Assembly: GCA_003213015.1 (NCBI GenBank)
Contig: QCOG01000002.1
Coordinates: 72,001 to 136,000, forward strand
Length of the DNA: 64,000 bases
Reading direction: 5' to 3'
Source of the DNA: Pelagibacteraceae bacterium AG-430-F16
Lineage (GTDB): Bacteria > Pseudomonadota > Alphaproteobacteria > Pelagibacterales > Pelagibacteraceae
In this document: piece after piece, positions 44,313 through 48,224 of the stretch
How positions within the stretch are numbered: position 1 is the stretch's first letter
Layout of the letters: every line of letters begins with the position of its first letter
Notes under the pieces: model-generated
The model's database searches: none
The model's input: only the letters and a program-made list of their open reading frames with translations
Told to the model about the DNA's origin: nothing
Made by a program: the position numbers and the translations under genes

Positions 44313-44638
44313 TGACTTACATAGTAAACGACAAGTGTATTAAATGTAAACTAATGGATTGTGTAGAAGTATGTCCTGTTGATTGTTTTTACGAGGGAAA
44401 AAATATGCTTGTAATTAAACCAGATGAATGTATAGATTGTGGCGTTTGTGAACCTGAGTGTCCAGTTGATGCGATTAAACCAGATACAGAAGATGGAAGT
44501 GAAAAATGGTTAGAGTTAAACAAGAAGTATTCAGAGATTTGGCCAAATATTTCAGAAAAAAAAGATCCACCAATAGATAACGAGAAATATAAAAATGAAG
44601 AAAATAAATTTGAAAAGTATTTTAAAGAAAACCTTTGA
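44312..44638 (+). CDS. fdxA: 7Fe ferredoxin (FdxA type)
   Basis: [54 protein letters not shown]. Confidence 0.95.
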
Positions 44639-45464
44639 TAAGAGAAAAAAAGGCATACCAAAAAAGAAAGTTAAAACTGTAATAAAAAAAAATAAAATAA
44701 TAAAAATAAAAAATAAATTAGGTAGACCAAAGTTAAAACAAACACATAAAAATTCTTTAAAGGGAAAAGCTAAAGCTAATTTACCCAAACCAAAAAATAA
44801 TGAAAGTTTACGCCTTTCTAAAAATCAGGATCAAAAACCTGAAATAATTAAGATTAAAAAACAGGAAACCGAAAAAAAACAATTTAAACCAAAAGATTAT
44901 GTTGTTTATCCAAAACACGGTGTTGGACAAATTTTATCTGTAAGCGCAAAGACAATCGGTGGAATTAACGTGCAGTGTTACGATATTAAATTTGAAAAAG
45001 ATAAAGCTATTGGATTACTACCTATAAACAAACAATCGAATTTAAGACCATTATCGACAATCAACCAAGTCAATAAATCTATATCGATACTAAAAGGAAA
45101 GCCAAAAATTAAAAGATCAATGTGGAGTAGAAGAGCTCAAGAATACGAACAAAAGATAACATCGGGAAAAATCTATGAGTTAGCAGAGGTGGTAAGAGAT
45201 TTAAATAAAGGCGATGATATTATGATTGATCAATCATACAGCGAAAGACAGTTGTTTGAAAAAGCCTATGAAAGAATACTGACAGAATTCCAAATAATAT
45301 TAAATCTATCTCTGGGGGATACCCAAAAAAAGCTTGATAAGGCTTTGAAGAGAAATTTAGAAAAGAATCAGCAAAATCTAGAAAAAAAAGCACCAACTAA
45401 TCAAAAACTAAGTCAAGACACAGAGGAACCAGAAAATTTAGAAAACGTTTCAGAAGAAGGGTAA
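44595..45464 (+). CDS. carD: CarD-family transcriptional regulator with Lys-rich N-terminal extension
   Basis: CarD/RID domain [41 protein letters not shown] and C-terminal helical domain; no in-frame ATG later than 44595 before the domain. Confidence 0.88.
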
Positions 45465-45466
45465 AA

Positions 45467-45505
45467 AAAAACGCTTCTCACACAAACGTTATGAGAAGCG
45501 TTTTT
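45467..45505. terminator. bidirectional intrinsic terminator between carD and the K/R peptide gene
   Basis: Perfect 14-bp inverted repeat AAAAACGCTTCTCA / TGAGAAGCGTTTTT with an 11-nt loop; T-run on + and A-run (T-run on -) on the other flank. Confidence 0.85.
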
Positions 45506-45517
45506 AAAAAAGAAAAT

Positions 45518-45589
45518 TTATCTTCTTCTTCTTCTTTTTTTTGCTTTTTTCTTAGCTTTTTTCTTAGCTTTTTTTCTTCGTTTAGCCAT
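45518..45589 (-). CDS. 23-aa histone-tail-like Lys/Arg/Ala peptide
   Basis: ATG GCT AAA CGA AGA ... AGA TAA translates to MAKRRKKAKKKAKKKAKKRRRRR; preceded on the minus strand by CAGGGAGCTAAAGATG (Shine-Dalgarno). Absent from the ORF track, apparently because of length. Confidence 0.75.
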   Translation of the reverse strand: MAKRRKKAKKKAKKKAKKRRRRR

Positions 45590-45607
45590 CTTTAGCTCCC
45601 TGTTGTT

Positions 45608-45626
45608 ACGAATCTTTTTGATTCGT
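45608..45626 (-). promoter_or_regulatory. 5'UTR hairpin upstream of the K/R peptide RBS
   Basis: Perfect ACGAATC-AAAAA-GATTCGT stem-loop (7-bp stem, 5-nt loop) just upstream of the GGGAG Shine-Dalgarno. Confidence 0.5.
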
Positions 45627-45659
45627 TATAAGTTAATTCTTAAATATTTTCTTTTGTTA

Positions 45660-45665
45660 TGTCAA
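45660..45665 (-). promoter_or_regulatory. candidate -35 box (TTGACA) for the K/R peptide gene
   Basis: Exact TTGACA on the minus strand upstream of the hairpin; the -10 at 17-18 bp is poor (TAAGAA/AAGAAT). Confidence 0.3.
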
Positions 45666-45786: not shown

Positions 45787-47475
45787 TTAATAAAGTTTTT
45801 CCAAATCTTCTTTATATTTTTCTAAAATTTTTTTTCTTTTTAATTTCAAAGTTGGTGTCAACATTCCATTTTCAATTGTAAATTCCTCTTTAATAATTTT
45901 AATTTTTTTAACTTTTTCAACAGTTGACAAATTTTTATTTAAATTTTCGATGTATAAATTAATTTCTGCTCTATTTTCTTCACGATCACTTACAATTAGC
46001 GCAACTAAATAAGTTTTTTTATCTCCGTAAACTAAACTTTGTTTAATTTTTTCATTTAAACATAATAAATTTTCAATTTTAGACGGAGAAATGTTATCAC
46101 CACCTAGATTTACAATAATTTCTTTTTTTCTATCAGTTATTTTCAAATTTCCTTCTTTAGTAAACTCTCCTATATCACCAGTATGTAACCATCCTTCTTT
46201 AACAATTTCATTAGTTTCATCTTTTTTATTCCAATAGCCAAGCATAACGTTTTCTCCTCTAACTAATATTTCACCATCAATTGAAATTTTTACTTCGTTG
46301 GTTTTAAAAGGAGGTCCTACAGTCTCAATTTGAATATTCCCTGGAATGTTGCAGCTTACAACTGGAGAGGCTTCTGTAAGGCCATATCCTTGTAATGTAG
46401 GTAATCCAATAGAGTTCAAAAATTCTCCGATTTTTTGATCAAGAGCACCACCACCTGAAACAAATGCTTGAAGTTCTCCACCAAATTGTTTTTTGATCTT
46501 TTTTCTGACTAAAATTTCACACAAAAAATTAGATATTTTTTCCCCAAAATTAAGGTTTTCCTTTTTAAGATTTTTTAAACCTAATTTTAAAGTATTCTCT
46601 ATCAGGCTCTTCTTGAAACCGCTCAATTTAGAAAAGTTTAAAGAAATTTTATTATATAAATTTTGATAGAATCTAGGGACAGCAGTCATGATTGTGGGTT
46701 TTGCTATTGACATATTGGGAATAAGTTTATCTAAACTTTCAGCATAATAAACCTTTGCTCCGAGAGAAATTTGCACAAATTGGACTGTATGTTCATAAGA
46801 ATGTGAAAGAGGTAACCACGTCAAAAAAACTGGTTTTTTCTTATTAACAATTGAAGATAATATTCCTAGAGCTCCTTCACAGTTAGAAAGAATTCCTCCG
46901 TGACTTAACATCACTCCTTTTGGTTTACCTGTCGTACCAGAGGTATAAATTATACAAGCTAAATCATTTCTTCTAATTTTTTGATTATAGCTTTCATTAA
47001 TTAGATTTGTTTTTTTAAATATTTGAGAAAAATTTTCAATTTTATCAGTTGTTTCATCAATCGAGATTATCTTAATATTGTTATTTAAAAATTTTTTTAT
47101 TTTTTCATACTGTAATTTATTTGAAACTATACAAACCTTTGGTCCACAATCATTAATGATGTATTCATAGTCTGAATTTGAATAAGTAGTAAATAAAGGT
47201 ACTGTAACACCTCCTGAATTCATTATTGCAATATCAGCAATTAACCATTGAGGTCTATTTTCAGATAGTAAAATACATCTGTCACCAGGAGTAATATAAT
47301 CTTGTAGATAAGCTGTTAGAGATCTGATTTTTGATGTTACTTCACTCCAACTTAGGGAATAATTCTTAACTTTTGAACTTAATCCAAATAAAAAATGCAG
47401 ATTTTTTTTATCCTCGATTTCATCATATTTTTTAAAATAAAGTTCTACTAAACTATTTAAGTTTTTTATTTTCAT
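45787..47475 (-). CDS. long-chain acyl-CoA synthetase (AMP-binding family)
   Basis: CIIYTSGTTGKPKGVMLSHGGI, GYGLTEASPVVSCN, GWLHTGDIGEFTKEGNLKITDRKKEIIVNLGGDNISPSKIE. Confidence 0.92.
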   Translation of the reverse strand: MKIKNLNSLVELYFKKYDEIEDKKNLHFLFGLSSKVKNYSLSWSEVTSKIRSLTAYLQDYITPGDRCILLSENRPQWLIADIAIMNSGGVTVPLFTTYSNSDYEYIINDCGPKVCIVSNKLQYEKIKKFLNNNIKIISIDETTDKIENFSQIFKKTNLINESYNQKIRRNDLACIIYTSGTTGKPKGVMLSHGGILSNCEGALGILSSIVNKKKPVFLTWLPLSHSYEHTVQFVQISLGAKVYYAESLDKLIPNMSIAKPTIMTAVPRFYQNLYNKISLNFSKLSGFKKSLIENTLKLGLKNLKKENLNFGEKISNFLCEILVRKKIKKQFGGELQAFVSGGGALDQKIGEFLNSIGLPTLQGYGLTEASPVVSCNIPGNIQIETVGPPFKTNEVKISIDGEILVRGENVMLGYWNKKDETNEIVKEGWLHTGDIGEFTKEGNLKITDRKKEIIVNLGGDNISPSKIENLLCLNEKIKQSLVYGDKKTYLVALIVSDREENRAEINLYIENLNKNLSTVEKVKKIKIIKEEFTIENGMLTPTLKLKRKKILEKYKEDLEKLY

Positions 47476-47479
47476 AAAA

Positions 47480-47566
47480 TGGTGGGCAAAGAGAGAATCG
47501 AACTCTCACAGTATTACTACTATTGGATTTTGAGTCCAACGCGTCTACCAGTTCCGCCATTCGCCC
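47480..47566 (-). tRNA. tRNA-Leu (CAA anticodon)
   Basis: Reverse complement GGGCGAATGGCGGAACTGGTAGACGCGTTGGACTCAAAATCCAATAGTAGTAATACTGTGAGAGTTCGATTCTCTCTTTGCCCACCA; class II, anticodon loop CTCAAAA. Confidence 0.95.
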
Positions 47567-47615
47567 AATTTTAATAATTTCATTTTTATAATTATAGTAT
47601 AAAAATAATTTTAGC

Positions 47616-48224
47616 ATGTTTAAAGAAATATATAGAAAATCAATCGATTTGGCGGGTCATAAAAATTCAAAATTTTTTCTAGGTTTTATATCGTTCATAG
47701 AAAGTTTTATATTTCCAATACCACCTGACGTTTTTATTATACCAATGACAATTGCTAAGAGAACCGAATGGCTTAAAATTGCTTTAATCGCCACTATTGG
47801 GTCTGTTTTGGGAGCATGCCTTGGATATTTTATTGGCTATGTTTTTTTTAATGAGATTGGTATAAAGATATTTGAATTATACGGTGTTGATAATACTAAC
47901 TTTTTAAAAGACAAAGTTTCCTCAGATGGGGGTATAATAGCTTGGATAACTTTGTTAGCTATCGCTGGTTTCACGCCTGTGCCATTTAAATTACTAACTA
48001 TTACAAGTGGATTTGTACACTTTAATTTTTTCTATTTTGCTCTTGTATCATTATTAACAAGAGGTTTTAGATTTTTTTTAATAGCGTTTTTAATTGGAAA
48101 TTTTGGACCCGCTATGAAAAAAATAATTGAAAAAAGACTAGTCACCCTCTCGATAATTATATCTGTTATTTTGGTGATAGTTGCTTACTTTGTATACAAT
48201 TTCTTAGTCGAATTTAAATTATAG
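47616..48224 (+). CDS. YqaA/DedA-like (VTT domain) membrane protein
   Basis: FFLGFISFIESFIFPIPPDVFIIPM, GACLGYFIGY, FTPVPFKLLTITSGFVHFNFFYF, LTRGFRFFLIAFLIGNFGP. Confidence 0.85.
   Translation: MFKEIYRKSIDLAGHKNSKFFLGFISFIESFIFPIPPDVFIIPMTIAKRTEWLKIALIATIGSVLGACLGYFIGYVFFNEIGIKIFELYGVDNTNFLKDKVSSDGGIIAWITLLAIAGFTPVPFKLLTITSGFVHFNFFYFALVSLLTRGFRFFLIAFLIGNFGPAMKKIIEKRLVTLSIIISVILVIVAYFVYNFLVEFKL

Follow-up and report, generated by a model that had tools for sequence, protein, structure and literature searches.

What can a reading frame of 23 codons be for when it encodes, after its methionine, nothing but lysine, arginine and alanine, and by what means would its translation be controlled? The question is raised by a minus-strand open reading frame (micro-ORF) convergent to carD in a stretch of DNA of 64,000 nucleotides, the whole of which is called the window here. 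The window is taken to be SAR11 DNA because the closest named relatives of its carD protein are those of Pelagibacteraceae single-cell genomes. The original prediction held the micro-ORF to be a functional unit with its own Shine-Dalgarno (SD) sequence and a bidirectional terminator, and likened its product to histone H1-like tails.

The gene unit convergent to carD

Exact translation of the minus strand returned the predicted peptide of only Lys, Arg and Ala after Met, and the predicted SD sequence lies six nucleotides from the ATG, in the order GGGAG-CTAAAG-ATG (Table 1). The bidirectional terminator expected toward carD was found as well: the inverted repeat, formed by AACGCTTCTCA and TGAGAAGCGTT with runs of A and T on both sides, folds, and the entire micro-gene transcript has a z of −6.0. 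This repeat is absent from a consensus terminator scan because its loop exceeds the length that the scan allows. Beyond what had been predicted, the locus contains a promoter with TTGACA and a ribosome-binding site (RBS) complementary to a second locus.

Table 1. Features of the micro-gene and its surroundings in the window
Feature	Position	Strand	Remarks
Micro-ORF, 23 aa	45518-45589	−	MAKRRKKAKKKAKKKAKKRRRRR; stop codon within the coordinates
SD sequence GGGAG	45596-45600	−	Read from the sequence; also in relatives
Leader hairpin ACGAATC-AAAAA-GATTCGT	45608-45626	−	By folding; perfect CGAATC-N5-GATTCG
−35 element TTGACA	45660-45665	−	17-nt spacer to the −10
Weak −10 element TAAGAA of the micro-gene	45637-45642	−	
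Bidirectional terminator-like inverted repeat	45463-45507		Common to the micro-gene and convergent carD
13-nt target GGGAGCUAAAGAU	45588-45600	−	Exact complement of the RF01814 (rhtB) hairpin loop AUCUUUAGCUCCC
carD	44595-45464	+	CdnL-type RNA-polymerase-binding regulator; convergent; Pfam CarD_TRCF_RID and CarD_C
AMP-binding acyl-CoA ligase-like gene	45787-47475	−	Upstream of the micro-gene; Pfam AMP-binding

Attenuation through a leader peptide was considered and dropped, as beyond the terminator there is no gene on the same strand, only carD in antisense. Upstream, the ORF MAELVDALDSKSN... at 47453-47617 on the minus strand is spurious and overlies a tRNA-Leu(caa) gene at 47480-47566.

Conservation in the SAR11 family

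The loci of relatives were retrieved via the carD protein. The start codon and RBS of the micro-ORF are present in 30 of the first 30 loci, the ORF in 21 of 22 further loci of the same genus (the exception, L138, stops at a contig end) and in every one of the 20 loci read outside that genus but within the family. The original prediction would have been undermined had relatives lost the frame, the start codon or the RBS; a frame-shift was met in one copy only (L021, of genus g6), which may be a sequencing error or a real loss. The intact copies at the carD-convergent locus across the SAR11 family strongly support the claim that the unit is functional. The family set comprises 77 different ORFs, which encode 59 different peptides of 20-58 aa, and K+R+A amount to 94% of their residues (K 0.54, R 0.24, A 0.17). 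Among the 77 ORFs the pooled pS is 0.366 and the pooled pN 0.138, and the differences at codon positions 1, 2 and 3 number 605, 777 and 1200, a third-position bias to which, as in the pS/pN comparison, no p-value is attached because the sequence pairs are not independent. The micro-ORF is a conserved coding unit and not a chance reading frame.

The surroundings of the ORF are also conserved. All 92 loci have the motif TTGAC[AT] at 45-150 nt upstream, whereas it occurs in 2.1% of shuffled sequences. Each of the 92 also has a stem in the leader and a long one downstream, two counts that stand without a shuffled control. The base pairs of the leader hairpin differ between genera, as in CGAATC/GATTCG and ATCACTTAA/TTAAGTGAT, which argues for an RNA structure.

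Longer counterparts and histone H1-like character

The peptides at the carD-convergent place form a graded series. In the genus of the window they are 20-35 aa long; the outer SAR11 genera have forms of 29-58 aa in which Pro and Thr are present; and in a sister family within the order, a search for longer ORFs at nine carD loci showed each to carry a protein of 40-99 aa in the convergent slot, with KAAPKKKK-type repeats (MEELKVIFAKARKKAKKKAAPKKKRKAAKRKPAKKKAAPKKKKRKAAK... is an example). The longer forms at this place have the sequence KAAPKKKKRKAAK. Low-complexity repeats rich in K and A(P), by which a protein is recognised as H1-like, are found in the counterparts of 29-99 aa, while the 23-aa form consists of KKA repeats devoid of Pro; it is a low-complexity chain, expected to be disordered. 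The resemblance to histone H1 put forward in the original prediction is thus borne out by the longer positional counterparts (58 aa long in one other SAR11 genus, 40-99 aa in the sister family) and not by any curated family model: neither the peptide nor its counterparts gave a Pfam match or a meaningful NCBIfam match, and for that reason the peptide is labelled H1-like and not filed as a member of a family. No carD-adjacent H1-like gene was found in 28 other alphaproteobacterial loci.

On these grounds the micropeptide is probably a shrunken histone H1-like tail, and the short and long forms one gene. The case for homology of the short form is one of position and composition, as confident alignment of K/R/A sequences is not possible, and the sister-family and SAR11 loci have just the carD flank in common. 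Being a dense polycation, the peptide would probably bind DNA or RNA by charge. The series of loci, going from an H1-like protein of 80-100 aa to one of about 21 aa, would offer a natural experiment on the minimal charge-based nucleic-acid-binding protein. Lysine-rich stretches occur in CarD itself too: in two other alphaproteobacterial loci (L198, L201) CarD has a KAAKKKP-type H1-like N-terminal extension, and the N-terminus of SAR11 CarD is likewise rich in lysine over about 80 aa. In three sister-family loci (L170, L173, L185) the H1-like gene has CCC...GGGGGGAG around its SD, which could form a small hairpin at the RBS.

The rhtB RNA and its complementarity to the micro-gene start

An Rfam scan of the window returned a sub-threshold match to RF01814 on the plus strand across the micro-gene RBS. 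The match is not an rhtB hairpin; it is explained by the micro-gene RBS being the complement of the rhtB loop, and in this way it revealed the pairing. Other sub-threshold Rfam matches (ctRNA_pT181 and others) were discarded as low-complexity or terminator matches. RF01814, named rhtB, was described as a hairpin near rhtB that has a bulge and a conserved loop, and no target or function was given (Meyer et al. 2009, PMC2704228). A literature search, with subscription journals outside its coverage, found no paper naming RF01814 and none joining Pelagibacter, rhtB and sRNA.

The genome of the window has one true copy (G000:C3:84231-84309), unlinked to the micro-gene, which at 72.4 bits exceeds the gathering score of 55 and is a member of the family. 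In its fold, GATAGTCCT pairs with AGGACTATC as the outer stem and AGCC with GGUU as the upper stem, and the 13-nt loop is exactly AUCUUUAGCUCCC. In 26 distinct sequences, 337 of 338 stem cells are standard pairs on the rhtB strand and four stem positions have two-sided compensatory types, and the opposite strand has 34 non-standard cells, 26 of them from one invariant G-U; these hairpins were gathered by a regular expression fixing parts of the stem and the loop, so that invariance there is partly by construction. The searches with the RF01814 model were independent of that expression. The hairpin is closely preceded by an extended −10 (TGnTAnnnT) in 61 of 67 loci, and a clear U-tract terminator is seen in only 13 of the 67, a scarcity by which RF01814 may be the 5′ UTR of rhtB and not a free sRNA.

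The genera with RF01814 above cut-off are that of the window, g11 and g14. Complete genomes of g5, g9 and g12 gave no such match, and in g2 and g4 the gap between rhtB and the DUF2805 gene is short and contains no RF01814. The genomes of several relatives are incomplete. The hairpin, its covariation and its loop persist in genomes that have no adjacent rhtB. In five such loci (L316, L319, L324, L335, L337) the RNA is flanked by a DUF2805-like gene and by one for a small protein of secreted or outer-membrane-like type, and several of the loci have a proC-like gene farther out.

In the micro-gene, the complement of the loop spans the SD, the spacer and the first two bases, AU, of the start codon, and the complementarity between the two loci extends over 18-19 nt (45582-45600), reaching codon 3. 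Allowing at most one mismatch in 19 nt, GGGAGCTAAAGATGGCTAA has exactly two sites in each of 19 same-genus genomes (that of the window and 18 others), one being the micro-gene and the other the rhtB copy, and this whole-genome exclusion of other targets covers near-perfect sites only. The loop duplex is computed at −21.6 kcal/mol; for 438 other start regions, drawn from the 400 kb of genome in which weaker targets were scored, the mean is −4.7 (sd 2.4) and the best value −17.4. Cofolding of both RNAs gains −19.9 kcal/mol over folding them separately. Lineages devoid of RF01814 have a highly variable spacer from SD to AUG; the genus of the window shows CUAAAG or CUAAAA only, the outcome expected from selection by RF01814. 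An identical 19-mer precedes an ORF of 371 aa in three viral contigs (L031-L033); these matches were taken as a coincidence and not as targets, a good RBS with ATGGCTAA ahead of an unrelated ORF.

Covariation of loop and target

The two spacers allow the pairing to be followed through natural variants. Of 399 genomes of the genus, 16 have A instead of G between GGGAGCTAAA and the ATG, and in 13 of those 16 both copies carry the A variant; inspection of the loci showed each of the 13 to have one micro-gene and one rhtB hairpin. A fourteenth genome (G464) also has both copies variant, and the other variant genomes gave one copy only. The change of G to A before the AUG is therefore matched by a change of C to U in the RF01814 loop in 14 of the 14 genomes with both copies. 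On a tree of carD and the ligase, 55 genomes with both states known comprise 14 A/A, 41 G/G and no discordant combination, and parsimony places about five changes at each locus. Four independent supported pairs are all concordant (sign test, p = 0.125); as a sign test with four pairs cannot reach 0.05, it is the recurrence of a perfect match between unlinked loci that carries the argument from covariation. In one genome (G242) a single loop base differs and leaves a G-U pair, a wobble expected to be a neutral intermediate step. Hence an extended complementarity to the RBS is preserved by compensatory change, which is one of the marks of a trans-acting base-pairing sRNA.

Discussion

Conservation, complementarity and covariation suggest that the rhtB RNA probably regulates by base pairing and covers the translation start of an H1-like peptide that would bind nucleic acids. 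The micro-gene would be a free-standing transcription unit with promoter, 5′ hairpin, RBS, ORF and terminator, devoted to a polycationic peptide of 20-58 aa, and its translation would be controlled by the rhtB RNA in the genus of the window and in two relatives. Transcripts would start just upstream of GATAGTCC and a few nucleotides upstream of the CGAATC hairpin. By pairing across the start region, from the SD through the spacer to the AU of the AUG, the 13-nt RF01814 loop would block binding of the 30S subunit and initiation, and so repress synthesis of the peptide. Such repression would limit a costly and potentially toxic polycation, the level of which may be kept low until some physiological trigger made it needed.

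The control might also run in the opposite direction, or in both. The hairpin would then be the 5′ UTR of rhtB, which encodes a LysE-type exporter, and would be opened or captured by the micro-gene mRNA, so that a reading frame rich in Lys and Arg would tune an amino-acid exporter. LysE-type exporters can handle Lys and Arg, and an rhtB-like ATG is found at most 30 nt after the hairpin in 47 of the 67 loci. An SD-like AGGA for rhtB is located within the 3′ arm of the hairpin (in L089 and the 67 RF01814 loci) and may gate rhtB translation; a possible terminator or regulatory role had already been proposed for the rhtB-associated element (Meyer et al. 2009, PMC2704228). However, the hairpin and its covariation are kept in genomes that have no adjacent rhtB but a different gene at a distance of about 200 nt, and the invariant part is the anti-RBS loop and not the start region of rhtB. 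We regard this reading as somewhat unlikely, though it is a serious rival or addition to repression of the peptide by the rhtB RNA. As for the peptide, bL37, bS22 and bTHX are likewise very small and highly basic, and by size and charge it could be a small ribosomal or rRNA-binding protein instead of an H1-like nucleoid protein, the more so as the search of solved structures turned up no SAR11 ribosome. Ribosomal proteins have a fixed length, yet here the length varies from 20 to 58 aa in the family and up to 99 aa in the sister family, with KAAPKKKK repeats, and the solved ribosomal chains gave no convincing match (best E 0.52, for an 85-aa form, and none for the 23-aa form). A ribosomal role is thus considered unlikely.

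A short peptide, a structured mRNA leader and an antisense RNA over the RBS recall a type I toxin-antitoxin system, in which a toxic cationic peptide would be silenced by the RNA. Nevertheless the peptide gene occurs in many genera, complete genomes included, unaccompanied by RF01814 as antitoxin; two genera keep the peptide and a syntenic rhtB-DUF2805 gap from which the RNA is missing; the two loci are unlinked; and the peptide is not hydrophobic, all of which makes such a system improbable. A regulatory protein that binds one site word at both loci would also make the word change in parallel, the changes then reflecting the protein and not base pairing. This would need the specificity of the protein to shift about five times, whereas the G-U intermediate, of which G242 provides a case, makes the RNA path neutral. 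Moreover, the word sits exactly on the SD-AUG at one locus and exactly antisense on a hairpin loop at the other, and a common protein site is very improbable.

If base pairing by the rhtB RNA is the correct explanation, a target and a function would be provided for an RNA known since 2009 only as a conserved motif, and a previously unannotated peptide family would be added to SAR11, whose cells are among the most abundant of the ocean. A streamlined genome with few transcription factors may in this manner control its nucleoid through RNA pairing, and the natural loop-target variants make the pairing directly testable.

Comparison with known systems

The SAR11 partner RNA is a member of Rfam RF01814, a family described with no target. 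The peptide has no sequence match among solved chains of bL37, bS22 and bTHX, and its repeats are variable in length. K/R/A(P) repeats are common to the SAR11 counterparts and to chlamydial Hc1 and Hc2, AlgP and the H1-like/HMGA-like domain that is reported to be fused in myxobacterial CarD. The form in the window differs from these bacterial H1-like proteins in having only 23 aa, in being encoded by a separate gene convergent to carD and in lacking a Pfam match.

The closest precedent is that of Chlamydia trachomatis, in which the sRNA IhtA represses hctA, the gene of the histone H1-like protein Hc1 (PMC4355289, PMC3469542), its loop 1 occluding the hctA AUG (PMC4355289). Both systems place a hairpin-loop sRNA over the mRNA start of an H1-like lysine-rich protein, the SAR11 pairing being a computed one. 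They differ in phylum, and the RNAs are unrelated; HctA is a larger protein than the SAR11 peptides of 20-58 aa; and IhtA pairs with hctA over 6-7 nt around the AUG, the SD not being involved, whereas the SAR11 pairing of 13-19 nt covers SD, spacer and AUG. It seems reasonably likely, if a little less so than the pairing regulation itself, that SAR11 has independently evolved antisense-hairpin control of a miniature H1-like chromatin peptide, in parallel to IhtA and HctA of Chlamydia, and that the micro-gene is the first target of RF01814.
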